DNA of 64,000 bases from Bacteroidota bacterium. Its GTDB lineage: Bacteria > Bacteroidota > Bacteroidia > B-17B0 > Aurantibacillaceae. The translations under genes and the position numbers were made by a program. The notes under the pieces are model-generated. The model had not been told where the DNA came from. It did no database searches and was given only the letters and a program-made list of their open reading frames with translations. Of the stretch, positions 3,266 through 60,562 are shown piece after piece (position 1 is the first letter of the stretch; every line of letters begins with the position of its first letter). The stretch covers positions 124,001-188,000 of the forward strand of contig JAQZBQ010000001.1 of the NCBI GenBank assembly GCA_029237825.1. Direction: 5' to 3'.

Positions 3266-3429
3266 ATTTTTGGGCTTTAGGTGATTAAAACCTTAAAGAT
3301 AATGGTTCTTTTTATTCGAAACATACATTTTACAAGGTAGGTCAAATCGTGAAAGTTGCATTCTTGCGTAAAATCTTACATAGGAAACTTCGGGTGGCTA
3401 TTGACTTTTAGTCACTGGAATAAGAGCTC

Positions 3430-3437
3430 TAATTTTG
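3430..3437 (+). promoter_or_regulatory. Candidate -7 promoter element (TAATTTTG)
   Basis: The octamer fits the Bacteroidota TAnnTTTG consensus exactly and lies 36 nt before the ATG of the secreted Fn3-like protein, giving an expected leader of about 33 nt. No well-spaced TTG/TTTG -33 box is visible; the nearest TTG is 26 nt away, which is too far. Confidence 0.45.
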
Positions 3438-3473
3438 GTCCATTAAAAAACCAAATAATTTAATGCGATTATC

Positions 3474-4118
3474 ATGAAAACATTTCCTCATATCTGCCGC
3501 CTCATAATCTTAACCTGTATCCTGACATTTTCCAATATGAATTTCACTGCGTTTGCCGGCACCAAACCCGGTAAAGCTTCCACTTCTACTATTGAACCCT
3601 CGGAATTAAATAACTTTGAGGCCATTTCCAAGAGCGACAAGGTAGAACTTTCATGGGATATCCACATCAAATCAAATCATGTAACGTATGTTCTGGAACG
3701 TTCAAAAAACGGAGTTCGTTATGAAAAAATCGCTAAAGGGGAAGTGCATAACAGTTCAAATAACACCATTCAATTTATTGAAACGGATCACAAACCTCTG
3801 AAAGGAAAAGTATACTACCGTTTAAAAATAATTACTTCTAAACACAAAACCTGTTATTCCAGTGTTCTGGTTTTACCCAACGAGGTCTCACCAGAAACAA
3901 AAATACCATCAGCAGAAATAAATACCTGGGGAGAAAAACCGGTGCTGGTCGTATTAAGAGATTCGCATGGAAAAGAATATTTTTCTAAAATTCATGTGAC
4001 AGCAGTAGAATCCCGGATCATAGGAACCGATACAGAACATAAACTCAAACCAGGAAAATATACCATAAAAGGAACCTCGTTGAACGCCTTATACAGTCAT
4101 GAATTGATAGTGAAATAA
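3474..4118 (+). CDS. Secreted protein with fibronectin-III-like domain, function unknown
   Basis: The protein begins with a signal peptide (about residues 1-29, charged start, hydrophobic core, cleavage near AFAG). Residues about 45-145 resemble the Fn3-like module common in Bacteroidota exported proteins: an SDKVELSW strand, then VLERSKNGVRYEKI, then KVYYRLKII. The last 70 residues may be a second beta-rich domain. It does not end in a clear Por-secretion sorting sequence, and at 214 residues it is short for that class. It reads alone and is followed at once by a strong bidirectional terminator. Probably periplasmic or surface exposed; no specific function can be given. Confidence 0.75.
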   Translation: MKTFPHICRLIILTCILTFSNMNFTAFAGTKPGKASTSTIEPSELNNFEAISKSDKVELSWDIHIKSNHVTYVLERSKNGVRYEKIAKGEVHNSSNNTIQFIETDHKPLKGKVYYRLKIITSKHKTCYSSVLVLPNEVSPETKIPSAEINTWGEKPVLVVLRDSHGKEYFSKIHVTAVESRIIGTDTEHKLKPGKYTIKGTSLNALYSHELIVK

Positions 4119-56242: not shown

Positions 56243-57514
56243 ATGTTCTATTATCTATTTCAATATTTGGATCAATACCTCAACTTCCCAGGAGCTGGAG
56301 TTTTTCAATACATCTCATTTCGTGCTGCTCTGGCGTTAATGACATCGTTATTGATTTCAATGGTGTTTGGAAAACGGATCATCAGTTACATCCGAAAAAA
56401 ACAAATTGGGGAAACGATCAGGGAGCTGGGGCTCGAGGGACAAAACGAAAAAGCGGGTACGCCAACCATGGGAGGACTTATTATTCTGGCAGCAATTATC
56501 ATTCCTACCTTACTCTTCGCCAAAGTTCACAATGTATACATCGTGCTGATGCTTATTTCAACTATATGGCTTGGTTGCATCGGATTTATGGACGATTATA
56601 TCAAAGTATTCAAAAAAAATAAAGAAGGCTTAAAAGGTAAATTCAAAGTAGTTGGTCAGATAGGAATTGGATTATTAGTAGGTGCTGTTTTTTATTTCCA
56701 TCCGGATGTCGTAATTAAAGAACGCGTCACATCAAACCAGCAAAGCGCTTATTCATTTGATGAAGCCATCAGCAGCCAGAAGAATCTGACGATTCCGAAA
56801 TATGCGGCTACCCCTACAAAAACCATTAAAACAACAATACCATTCGTAAAAAATAATGAATTTGATTATACAAAAATTCTTTCATTCATGGGCGATACTG
56901 CGGCCCATAACTATGGCTGGCTGATATTCATTCCAATTGTTATTTTAATTGTCACCGCAGTTTCAAATGGCGCAAACATTACCGACGGCATTGACGGTTT
57001 AGCTGCGGGAACGAGTGCTATTATTGGCGCCACCCTTGGCATTCTTGCATACGTAAGTGGCAATACAGTTTTCGCGGATTACCTAAACATCATGTATATA
57101 CCAAACACCGGTGAACTGGTAGTTTTTATGGCTGCATTTGTTGGTGCCTGTGTTGGGTTCTTATGGTACAATGCTTTTCCTGCACAGGTATTTATGGGTG
57201 ATACAGGTAGTCTTGCCATTGGAGGAATTATTGCGGTATTCGCAATCGCAATCCGAAAAGAACTTCTAATACCAATCTTATGCGGAATATTTTTAGTAGA
57301 AAACCTCTCAGTTATTCTGCAGGTATATTATTTCAAATACCAAAAGAAAAAACGGGGACTTGAATTCGCAAAAGCAAATCGCCTTTTTAAAATGGCACCG
57401 TTGCATCACCATTATCAAAAGTCTGGTTTTCACGAATCCAAAATCGTTATGCGCTTTTTCATTATTGGGATAATGCTCGCAGCCCTAACCATCGTAACAT
57501 TAAAATTAAGATAA
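56243..57514 (+). CDS. mraY: Phospho-N-acetylmuramoyl-pentapeptide transferase MraY
   Basis: This integral membrane enzyme makes lipid I. Key sites are [10 protein letters not shown] near 72-80, Asp117-Asp118 (MDDYIK), [15 protein letters not shown] at 242-256, and the HHHYQ histidines near the C-terminus. It has 423 residues against about 360 in E. coli. The extra ~55 residues lie at about 155-212, in a soluble loop ([17 protein letters not shown] to FDYTKILSF), an expansion I believe is shared by Bacteroidota MraY proteins. It is in the operon between murE and murD. Confidence 0.96.
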
Positions 57515-57519
57515 ACTCA

Positions 57520-58866
57520 TTGAACAAACGGATAGTCATACTTGGTAGCGGGGAAAGCGGCATCGGCAGTGCAATATTAGCGCAGTCAAATGGGTTCAGT
57601 GTGTTCGTCTCTGATAAGGGCTTGATAAAGGAGAAATATAAAATCGAACTGATTCAAAATAACATTCCTTTTGAGGAAGGTAATCATACGGAAGATTTAA
57701 TCCTGAATGCTGCCGAGATCATTAAAAGTCCTGGTATTCCGGATAATATTGAATTGATTTTAAAAGCTAAAGAAAAAAACATTCCGGTTATCTCTGAAAT
57801 TGAGTTCGCCGGAAGGTACACCAAAGCTAAAACAATTTGCATAACGGGAAGTAATGGTAAAACAACTACCACCATGTTAACCTATCATATACTTCAAAAA
57901 GCCGGATATAAAGTTGGATTAGGTGGTAATGTCGGAAAAAGTTTTGCCTATCAGGTAGCAAAAGAGAATTATGAATATTACGTTTTAGAGCTGAGTAGTT
58001 TTCAACTGGATGGCATGTTCAACTTTAAGGCGGACGTTGCTGTTTTACTGAATATCACGCCCGACCATCTCGATCGTTATGATTACAAATTTGAGAATTA
58101 CGTGGCTTCTAAGTTCCGGATAACCCAAAACCAAACAAAAGAAGACGCGTTTATCTATTGTGCGGATGATTCAGTGATACAAGAATATATGACACATCAT
58201 TCTTTGCACGCTCAATTGATCCCTTTTAGTATCAAAAAAAAAATAGACGGGAATGGCGCGTACTTAATCAACAATGAAATAACCCTTAATTATAATAATA
58301 ACCCTAAACCCTTAATCATGACCCTAGAACAATTGGCTCTTGCAGGTAAACACAACGTTTACAACTCCATGGCTGCATCCTTAGCAGCGCGTATCGTTGA
58401 CATACGCAAAGACATCATTCGTGAAAGTTTAGAAGACTTTGTAAACGTTGAACACCGTTTAGAATTTGTTGCTTCAATCAACGGCATTGAATTTATAAAT
58501 GACTCTAAAGCAACCAACATCAATTCTACCTGGTACGCATTAGAAAGTATGCAAAAACCTACAGTTCTGATTCTTGGCGGCCAAGACAAAGGCAACAATT
58601 ACGATGAACTCATGGACCTCGTTAAAGAAAAAGTTAAAGCTATCGTATGCCTTGGAGTGGATAACAAGAAAATCATAAAGGCGTTCAAAGGCTCAGTAGA
58701 AACGATCATGGAAGCCGGTTCAGCAGTTGAGGCAGTGGCCATGTGTTACAAATTAGCTACGAAAGGCGATGCAGTATTGTTATCACCTGCATGTGCAAGT
58801 TTTGATTTGTTTGAAAACTACGAAGACAGAGGTGCCCAATTTAAATCAGCTGTACGAGGTTTATAA
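57520..58866 (+). CDS. murD: UDP-MurNAc-L-alanine:D-glutamate ligase MurD
   Basis: The three Mur domains are present: a Rossmann-like N-domain (VILGSGESGIGSAIL), a central ATPase with GSNGKTTTT at 110-118, and a C-domain with EHRLEFV at 311-317, DSKATN at 328-333, GGQDKGN at 353-359, and SPACASFDLFENYEDRG at 422-438. All D-Glu-binding landmarks of E. coli MurD (DSKATN, the Lys after GGxD, the Ser and Phe of the last motif) are kept, so this is the working enzyme. The start codon is TTG. A second, shortened C-domain gene follows after 2 nt. Confidence 0.96.
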   Translation: MNKRIVILGSGESGIGSAILAQSNGFSVFVSDKGLIKEKYKIELIQNNIPFEEGNHTEDLILNAAEIIKSPGIPDNIELILKAKEKNIPVISEIEFAGRYTKAKTICITGSNGKTTTTMLTYHILQKAGYKVGLGGNVGKSFAYQVAKENYEYYVLELSSFQLDGMFNFKADVAVLLNITPDHLDRYDYKFENYVASKFRITQNQTKEDAFIYCADDSVIQEYMTHHSLHAQLIPFSIKKKIDGNGAYLINNEITLNYNNNPKPLIMTLEQLALAGKHNVYNSMAASLAARIVDIRKDIIRESLEDFVNVEHRLEFVASINGIEFINDSKATNINSTWYALESMQKPTVLILGGQDKGNNYDELMDLVKEKVKAIVCLGVDNKKIIKAFKGSVETIMEAGSAVEAVAMCYKLATKGDAVLLSPACASFDLFENYEDRGAQFKSAVRGL

Positions 58867-58868
58867 TT

Positions 58869-59339
58869 ATGAAAGAGAATGCCCTTGGCCATAAAACGTT
58901 TTCGATTAGCAGGGAAACGGATCATAGTTTTGAATTTGTTGCAACCATTAATAATGTTACTTTCATCAATGATTCAAAAGCAACCAATGCAAGACTTGCC
59001 GTAGAGAGTATTAATTCTGTAGATGCAGAAATTGTGCTCATCCTAGGTGGCGATGATATGAAAACCGATTATTCCTGGTTTACGAACATAAACTATTATA
59101 ACATCAAAACCGTTATCTACTTCGGGAGAAGATTTTCCGAAATAAAAAACATTTTTAATAAACATGTAATGGTAATTGTTGCTGAAAATTTAGAAAGTTC
59201 AGTGTTGCTGGCAAAATCAATGGCAATAAAAAATCAGGCGGTACTCTTTTCACCCGCGTGTCCAAGCTATGATCCTTTTGATAATTATAAAAACAGGGGC
59301 AATAAGTTTAAAAGCTTAGTGATAAGTGACAAAAGTTAA
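58869..59339 (+). CDS. Stand-alone MurD C-terminal-domain paralog, function unknown
   Basis: The 156-residue protein aligns along almost its whole length with the C-domain of the MurD just upstream: FEFVATINNVTFINDSKATN at 21-40, VLILGGDD at 56-63, and SPACPSYDPFDNYKNRG at 128-144. It has no N-domain and no P-loop, so it cannot be a ligase on its own. The HRxE motif is HSFE, three residues are missing after DSKATN, and the Lys after GGxD is shifted by one. The frame is intact with an ATG 2 nt after the murD stop, and it lies inside an essential operon. It may be a decayed tandem duplication, or a domain kept to bind D-Glu, a nucleotide, or MurD itself. Confidence 0.82.
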   Translation: MKENALGHKTFSISRETDHSFEFVATINNVTFINDSKATNARLAVESINSVDAEIVLILGGDDMKTDYSWFTNINYYNIKTVIYFGRRFSEIKNIFNKHVMVIVAENLESSVLLAKSMAIKNQAVLFSPACPSYDPFDNYKNRGNKFKSLVISDKS

Positions 59340-59404: not shown

Positions 59405-60562
59405 ATGAAACAACTATCGTACTTAAAAGGAGACCGGGTGATTTGGGCCATTGTGTTCTTATTATCACTGCTATCGGTACTGGTAGTTTACAGTTCGGTA
59501 GTAACATTAGCCCACAAATACAAACAGGGAAATACAGAAGCCTACCTGATCAAGCATGCGATAACCATTGCGGGTGGAATCTTAATTATGTATGCGGTAC
59601 ATAAATTAAAATACACCTTGTTTTCGAGAATAGCGCAGATAGGAATTTTTTTAGTTGTTCCGTTATTACTGTTTACCCTTTTAAAAGGAGTAAGCGCAGG
59701 CGAAGCTAGCAGATGGGTTGAAATTCCAGGGTTAGGGTTAACATTTCAATCATCTGACGTCGCAAAAATCATTTTACTGATTTTTGTAGCACGTACGCTT
59801 ACTATCCGCCAGGGACAGTTAGAGGATTTTAAGTCGGTTTTTAAATACCTTTTGGTGCCGGTAGGATTTATTTGCCTATTAATTTTTCCGGCAAACTTTT
59901 CTACAGCCGCATTATTATTTGCCAACTGTTTATTCCTGATGTTTGTTGGTAGAATAAAAGTAAAATTCATTAGTTACATTTTGGGCGCCTGTGCAGGATT
60001 CGCGCTTTTGCTAGGCATCACAATTTATCAATTCCCCGACCTGATACCACGAGGCGCAACCTGGAAAGCACGAATAGAAAACTTCAGTAAAGGTGATTCA
60101 AAAAGCAACTACCAAAGTGAACAGGCAAAAATTGCAATTGCAACCGGTGGCGTAATTGGCAAGGGACCTGGCAACAGCACACAGAGGGCATTCTTACCAC
60201 AAGCTTCTTCTGATTTTATCTATGCAATAATCATTGAAGAATATGGTTTATTGACAGGGTTTGTAATGCTTTTTTTATACATGATACTTCTTTTCCGCGG
60301 CATACGCATACTTAGAGATTCCGAAAAAACGTTTGGCGGACTAATGGCAGTTGGTTTAAGTTTCAGTCTGGTCTTCCAGGCACTCATTAATATGGCTGTG
60401 GCGGTAAACCTTTTCCCGGTAACTGGTCAGCCTTTACCATTAGTAAGTATGGGAGGAACCTCTATATGGTTCACCTGTATTGCAATCGGAATAATTTTAA
60501 GTGTGAGCAAAGCTAACGAAGATGGCGGAACAAAATTAAATAAAGACGTAATAGCAAATTAA
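59405..60562 (+). CDS. ftsW: Septal peptidoglycan polymerase FtsW (SEDS family)
   Basis: This protein has about ten membrane helices over 385 residues. SEDS landmarks are SLLSVLVVYSSV in the first helix, the GLTFQSSDVAKI loop, KGDSKSNYQSEQAKIAIATGG-type extracellular loop with GKGPGNSTQRAFLPQASSDFIYAIIIEE (containing the catalytic-region Asp), and LFPVTGQPLPLVSMGGTS near the end. It polymerises lipid II at the septum with FtsI as partner. It follows the MurD-C paralog by 65 bp, with murG 69 bp downstream. Confidence 0.95.
   Translation: MKQLSYLKGDRVIWAIVFLLSLLSVLVVYSSVVTLAHKYKQGNTEAYLIKHAITIAGGILIMYAVHKLKYTLFSRIAQIGIFLVVPLLLFTLLKGVSAGEASRWVEIPGLGLTFQSSDVAKIILLIFVARTLTIRQGQLEDFKSVFKYLLVPVGFICLLIFPANFSTAALLFANCLFLMFVGRIKVKFISYILGACAGFALLLGITIYQFPDLIPRGATWKARIENFSKGDSKSNYQSEQAKIAIATGGVIGKGPGNSTQRAFLPQASSDFIYAIIIEEYGLLTGFVMLFLYMILLFRGIRILRDSEKTFGGLMAVGLSFSLVFQALINMAVAVNLFPVTGQPLPLVSMGGTSIWFTCIAIGIILSVSKANEDGGTKLNKDVIAN

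Follow-up and report, generated by a model that had tools for sequence, protein, structure and literature searches.

The division and cell-wall (dcw) gene cluster of a member of the Aurantibacillaceae (Bacteroidota) was found to carry, between murD and ftsW, an intact gene that specifies the C-terminal (third) domain of MurD and nothing else of that enzyme. The window analysed was a stretch of 64,000 nucleotides (GCA_029237825.1, contig JAQZBQ010000001.1, positions 124,001 to 188,000), and the label SA is used for such a stand-alone MurD third-domain gene. SA has an intact frame and a recurrent slot before ftsW, its copies fall into one main clade, and it is under purifying selection in its genus; it has a predicted domain 3 fold, has lost the counterpart of Lys348 in most copies, and persists in the cluster after murD has left the slot. 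MurD, an essential enzyme and antibiotic target, has been studied in depth, and its third domain is described as binding D-glutamate (D-Glu) and closing on the active site. If lone third domains are indeed selected in the dcw cluster after the ligase has left, then the domain would have another partner.

The explanation tentatively favored here is that SA acts without catalysis, as an adaptor or regulator of the dcw-encoded assembly line for lipid II, since it is a lone domain, mostly without K348, that is selected, recurs in the same slot, and does not depend on a canonical MurD. SA would be an old partial copy of murD, largely inherited vertically and specifying domain 3 only, to which many families add the final ATPase-domain helix. 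Lying beside precursor enzyme genes, and with residues for ligation lost in most families, it would serve the dcw assembly line, that is, the Mur ligases, MraY, MurG, and FtsW. It presumably acts as a protein, in a non-catalytic role, with a partner among the dcw-encoded proteins.

The SA Gene

The frame has 156 codons and an ATG start, with the murD stop codon 2 nt upstream and the ftsW ATG (59405) 65 nt downstream (Table 1), an arrangement proposed in the original prediction, which was made from the sequence alone, and confirmed by the frame listing. A chance frame is excluded, because intact orthologous frames occupy the same position in other genomes of the genus. A BLASTP comparison with the adjacent MurD matched residues 311-445, of which 53 of 135 were identical (39%; E 3e-28 for this comparison), and the NCBIfam murD profile (TIGR01087) matched at positions 303-439 of 441 only (E 1.1e-35), which together confirm the proposed match to the MurD C domain alone, the N and ATPase domains being missing. 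The profile score of 123.5 bits was below the equivalog cut-off of 211.95. Pfam searches up to E 1 gave no match to Mur_ligase_M or MurD_N, and SA has neither the UDP-binding N domain nor the ATPase middle domain of a MurD; Mur_ligase_C (PF02875) matched at E 7.4e-5 and 24 bits, under its gathering score of 28.4. Lys348 and Arg302 of MurD are replaced in the window's SA by Met and Ser. The gene is equally distinct from MurD2, the L-Glu-adding enzyme, which is a complete ligase carrying Glu at D182 and Arg at K348; the window's SA is without domain 2 and has Met at the K348 place. The translation contains the FINDSKATN-type (here NDSKATN), GGDD, and SPACPSYDPFDNYKNRG motifs, as well as the predicted change of HRxE to HSFE. 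A loss of three residues after DSKATN, part of the same prediction, was a misreading: 16 residues lead from DSKATN to LILGG in both proteins, so the alignment to the neighboring MurD is gapless there, and its single one-residue gap lies elsewhere.

Table 1. Genes and SA motifs in the window (positions of the 64,000-nucleotide stretch).
Feature	Position	Strand	Basis
mraY, directly upstream of murD here and directly upstream of SA in family f72	56243..57514	+	named from sequence; homologues
murD, full length, 448 aa, TTG start	57520..58866	+	Pfam Mur_ligase_M and Mur_ligase_C above cut-off
SA gene, MurD third domain alone, 156 aa	58869..59339	+	frame, BLASTP, and profile matches; fold from orthologues
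HSFE (residues 19-22), counterpart of MurD HRxE; His and Glu retained, Arg gone	58923..58934	+	
NDS (residues 34-36), counterpart of N316-D317-S318	58968..58976	+	
GGDD turn (residues 60-63); Lys348 counterpart right after it is Met	59046..59057	+	
SPACPSYDPFDNYKNRG (residues 128-144), counterpart of the S415/F422/R425 loop	59250..59300	+	
ftsW, directly 3' of SA, also at loci without murD	59405..60562	+	predicted fold of an orthologue matches FtsW/RodA

Distribution

SA was present in all 20 genomes of the genus, the window's own included, with 19 full-length copies and one (G015) whose end is cut by a contig edge. In the rest of the family it was found in 2 of 40 genomes of the sister genus g2, in the single genome of g6, and in none of 26 others, a patchy presence which indicates that it is dispensable in many relatives. 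When the class was sampled evenly, an SA-sized second match was found in 78 of 396 genomes, which belong to 19 of 77 family codes. The search of relatives that had been proposed thus showed that a short MurD C-domain gene between murD and ftsW recurs in many families, and the absence from close relatives expected of a decaying duplicate did not appear.

A draw of the phylum included 73 genomes of the class, all of high completeness, where SA was found only in the window's own genome; among its 223 genomes of other classes, SA was detected in none at E 1e-10. Second matches in two genomes outside the class (G476 and G608) were rejected as split or cut murD genes. Fifteen of the best 80 named contigs had SA beside murD, and these were metagenome assemblies labelled Bacteroidetes, Bacteroidota, Bacteroidia, Flavobacteriales, or Chitinophaga pinensis. 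A contig labelled Candidatus Nomurabacteria (L094) carried a lone SA-like frame of 179 aa at about 3384-3923, with no murD-like frame found beside it in the available stretch; it may be a mis-binned contig or an outside member of the SA group.

Gene Order

At 94 of the 103 loci read (some genomes being counted twice), murD lay directly before SA, and ftsW followed SA in nearly all. About 700 nt separate SA from ftsW at one locus (L196), and another (L165) stops at a contig edge. An ATG of the SA frame, here a candidate start, was within 50 nt of the murD stop codon at 91 of the 94 loci. Together with the 2-nt gap in the window, this makes coupled expression of murD and SA likely, and it favors an unlikely alternative to the adaptor reading, namely a partner dedicated to MurD, in which SA docks on domains 1-2 of MurD (or on its domain 3) and so caps the enzyme or adjusts its activity. 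Against such a dedicated partner, the cluster of G126, the sole such genome found, is split between murD and SA, and SA remains with ftsW. A tandem pair of SA genes was seen between murD and ftsW at one locus (L204, in G361).

Selection and Evolutionary Rate

The dN/dS ratio of SA (Nei-Gojobori, last 145 codons) was 0.007-0.22, with a median of 0.079, in 17 genus pairs, chosen for dS <1.6 in both SA and murD from 120 pairs that include the window's copy; murD gave 0.03-0.096 (median 0.084) in the same 17 pairs. On stop-to-stop whole frames, in a run that left out the window's own copy, the SA ratio was 0.013-0.225 (22 closest genus pairs), and three pairs of family f9 gave 0.14-0.33. For the window's SA by itself the ratio is unreliable, given its distance from the 15 genus copies with which it was compared (dN 0.067-0.237; dS at least 1.28 or saturated, the latter in 8 of 15). 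These codon comparisons indicate that SA is under purifying selection in the genus. The earlier view of a gene strongly diverged and yet selected is upheld by 39% identity to the MurD C domain and by genus ratios far below 1, and the ratios near 1 with stops in sister strains that would mark decay were not seen, the frames being intact. A decaying duplicate was rejected for the genus on the low dN/dS, the intact frames, and the presence of SA in 20 of 20 genomes.

In eight of nine families SA outpaced the MurD C domain in its evolution, by a factor of 1.5 to 6.4. This rapid change, and the patchy presence described above, are what would be expected if SA were a functionless partial murD duplicate, a neutral leftover, but the depth of its clade and its fixed position in the cluster speak against this, as do the low ratios and intact frames in the genus, and it is very improbable; for the genus it is refuted unless saturation badly biases the estimates. 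The exception to the rapid change was family f12, where SA was slower than the MurD C domain (0.4). In seven within-genus pairs of f12, SA was 91-99% identical, compared with 62-87% for the first two MurD domains, and in all seven none of the other five stretches compared was as well conserved as SA.

Phylogeny and Origin

A quick tree with 60 SA rows, long branches included, placed SA on one side of a branch with an SH-aLRT value of 98. In a tree of 36 SA and 57 MurD rows the SA group had support of 96/91 and lay within the Bacteroidota MurDs. A constraint joining SA and MurD of the window's family was rejected (AU p 0.002, for a group named only after the tree had been seen), and a recent duplication inside that family was rejected by this test. 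After the addition of six rows from f72, the main SA clade (33 rows) had support of 100/98 and the f12 and f72 copies joined each other at 98/62; the unity of all SA dropped to 74/83, with all SA in one group in 72% of bootstrap trees. The SA copies therefore group together in the trees and separately from MurD, with strong support for the main clade and weak support with f12 and f72 included; on these values a single origin is likely, and two origins are possible. In a quick tree of MraY and FtsW, 16 SA-bearing families and one SA-less row grouped together (SH-aLRT 88), with f12 and f72 outside the group.

The MurD proteins of f12 (L169, L171, L172, L223, L225, L226, and L228) grouped with MurD of Cytophagales, at 100/97 on the C domain and with an SH-aLRT value of 90 in a quick full-length tree. 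As MraY and FtsW of f12 did not in their quick tree, murD of this family was probably replaced by transfer. At the start of many f72 copies of SA there is a segment similar to the closing part of the MurD ATPase domain, a hint that an internal start of murD gave rise to the gene.

Both observations would suit a history with two origins, in which the main SA clade arose by partial duplication in tandem, and the f12 and f72 copies are native dcw murD genes trimmed after a foreign MurD or MurL/MurD2 had taken over ligation. The joining of f12 with f72, the low support for the unity of all SA, and the retention in f12 SA of most catalytic C-domain residues, including K348, also fit such a history. 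It is nevertheless rather unlikely, as all SA still come together in most bootstrap trees; it concerns origin only, and would still imply that domain 3 alone was worth keeping.

Residues of the Ligand Pocket

Residues were counted in 93 distinct linked SA copies (97 linked rows, four genomes being double) and in 88 distinct neighboring MurDs. The E. coli numbering was anchored by HRxE, which was taken to be His301-Arg302, and D317 was likewise taken to contact the nucleotide in MurD. With that anchoring, T321, K348, and S415 fall in place as given in the available text of PMC4652230, where T321, K348, S415, and F422 are the residues of domain 3 said to touch D-Glu, and according to which MurD holds D-Glu only in its closed form, with a residue of domain 2.

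The most marked difference was at K348, which is Lys in 12 of 93 SA copies and in 86 of 88 MurDs. At the other positions the residue was invariant in the MurDs (88 of 88 each): Arg302 was kept in 47 of the 93 SA copies, Thr321 in 69, Ser415 in 78, Asp317 in 82, Glu304 in 91, and both His301 and Pro411 in all 93. Ser410 was kept in 88 of the 93. The best-kept residues of the linked copies, H301, E304, D317, and S410-P411, are on the side of the active site, a further point in favor of a partner dedicated to MurD. Eight f12 rows retain K348, Arg302, and most other catalytic C-domain residues, so that "non-catalytic" is not a general description of SA.

The same counts bear on the proposal that SA is a sensor, its half-pocket binding a nucleotide or UDP-MurNAc-peptide and reporting the precursor or energy level. 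In its favor are the retention of D317 (also in 40 of 40 f72 copies), S410, and P411, and the pocket of the window's family, where 19 SA rows have Thr at T321 in 14, Ser at S415 in 18, and Tyr at the F422 place in all 19. Yet among the same 40 f72 copies, H301 was kept in about 60%, and S415, Tyr422, and R425 in 30-42%. Lys348, a contact of D-Glu, is rarely kept, and closed MurD holds D-Glu with the help of a domain-2 residue (contacts as given in the available text of PMC4652230) that SA lacks. D-Glu sensing, the one half of the earlier suggestion, is weakened by these losses; sensing of a nucleotide, the other half, survives within an alternative that is on the whole improbable. The sensor and the MurD-dedicated partner overlap in part with the adaptor or regulator favored here.

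Family f72

An SA-sized match was present in 51 of 61 genomes of f72. All 41 loci examined (40, and that of G335) have the order mraY-SA-ftsW without murD, which indicates that the role of SA is independent of an adjacent canonical D-Glu-adding MurD. These loci also speak against a partner dedicated to MurD. With G126 they weaken the earlier suggestion of a regulator of MurD or of a subunit that swaps into it.

In f72, murD is located elsewhere, with frames of 885-1093 aa at that location in 26 genomes. The two that were examined, L238 (G335:C12) and L300 (G735:C16), have a MurL-like first half: the G335 frame matched NF041275 with E 1.4e-76 and 258 bits (cut-off 700), and the half in G735 was assigned by its similarity to the G335 frame. 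The f72 MurD copies read had R at K348 in nine of nine and E at D182 in eight of nine. According to the available text of PMC8788868, Xanthomonas MurD2 used D-Glu in place of L-Glu once these two residues had been changed to K and D, and a D-Glu-using MurD with Arg at the K348 place is also noted there, so that these residues are no proof of MurD2. A murI gene was found in none of ten f72 genomes tested and in four of four others. D-amino-acid transaminase is another source of D-Glu. Taken together, the MurD2-like residues, the MurL-like halves, and the lack of a detected murI suggest that f72 probably makes D-Glu by the MurL route, using MurL and MurD2. SA may bind MurD2 in this family.

A wider reading of f72 and f12, possible but doubtful, is that domain 3 has a second, non-catalytic function in the Bacteroidia, required next to MraY and FtsW at the stage of lipid II. 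A separate gene would have taken over this function and outlasted the ligase, which gave way in f72 to a MurL/MurD2-like route and in f12 probably to a Cytophagales-type MurD.

The family is also of note as a family of Bacteroidota with MurL-MurD2-like fusion frames and with murI undetected in the ten genomes tested. The bacteria for which MurL is given in the available text of PMC8788868 and PMC5808125 are Proteobacteria, actinobacteria, and a few others; the main texts of these two reviews do not contain the word Bacteroidetes (the former) or words in Bacteroid- (the latter).

Predicted Structure and Partners

Pairs were modelled with AlphaFold2 as read-through fusions of in-frame gene pairs, and both models were judged without an inter-domain error matrix. 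The prediction of the MurD-SA pair that had been proposed, in this makeshift form, gave no confident pose (28 rows, pTM 0.61), nor did that of SA-FtsW (34 rows, pTM 0.67). With shallow alignments and short linkers these are weak negatives, of which the first counts somewhat against a partner dedicated to MurD. The SA part of both models had ten-residue block means of 64-94, most above 85, and the SA models, which are of orthologues, had the same order of secondary elements as the third domain of MurD, so that the third-domain fold (PF02875) was found by prediction. Foldseek matched the SA-FtsW model to MurD structures with E about 1e-7 for the fused model as a whole, the best of them over about 140 columns at 1.6-1.9 A. 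SA is predicted to fold on its own. The SA profile found 11 solved sequences, all of them MurD of at least 437 residues, and no lone third domain.

Covariation of evolutionary rates was rejected as a means of naming a partner, being weak and driven by f12: partial rho was 0.39 with mraY and 0.40 with murG, or about 0.2 without f12, and 0.0-0.1 with ftsW. This weak covariation and the two models without a confident pose count against the adaptor reading, as do the patchy presence of SA, its rapid change in most families, and the catalytic residues kept in f12.

Relation to Known Systems

With MurD, SA shares domain 3, its predicted fold, 39% identity, and the motifs H-x-x-E, N-D-S, S-P-A-C, and N-Y-x-x-R-G, but it lacks the UDP-binding and ATPase domains, scores below the equivalog cut-off, and in the window lacks Arg302 and Lys348. 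A Mur-ligase-like protein that works with a partner is known from GatD/MurT of S. aureus, where MurT retains the ligase core. GatD/MurT was a weak fold match of the SA-FtsW model (rank 42, E 4.2e-3); it differs in that SA consists of a C domain alone, and that those neighbors at SA loci which carry a label are dcw genes. The MurD2/MurL route of Xanthomonas (available text of PMC8788868) resembles the enzyme side of f72, with its R at K348, E at D182, and MurL-like half, but SA is not MurD2: it has a different location, within the dcw cluster, and is without ligase domains. The MurG scaffold of Mur enzymes in Bordetella offers a model of the contact between Mur ligases and the membrane stage; the same source gives precedent for MurD, MurE, and MurF meeting MurG and MreB, and for MurF meeting MraY (PMC6420597, available text). 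SA adjoins ftsW and murG. The available part of that report mentions no stand-alone Mur domain. If SA has such a partner, that partner could reveal how the synthesis of soluble precursors is tied to MraY, MurG, and FtsW. The statement that no stand-alone MurD C-domain gene has been described held among the matches listed in full-text literature, a scope outside which most subscription papers fall.

Copies Apart from murD

At the remaining nine of the 103 loci (L230-L238), the copies lie apart from murD; one of them, L238, is the MurL-MurD frame itself. Three are divergent, unlinked SA paralogues from two families (L232 in G130, L234 in G039, and L235 in G168), and in all three an aldehyde dehydrogenase gene adjoins on the opposite strand (PF00171, E <1e-160 in each). 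A further unlinked, SA-like frame (L237, G405:C72) has kept most catalytic-domain motifs (HRLE and SPACASFDLFENYEDRG), and lies in a region crowded with overlapping frames.
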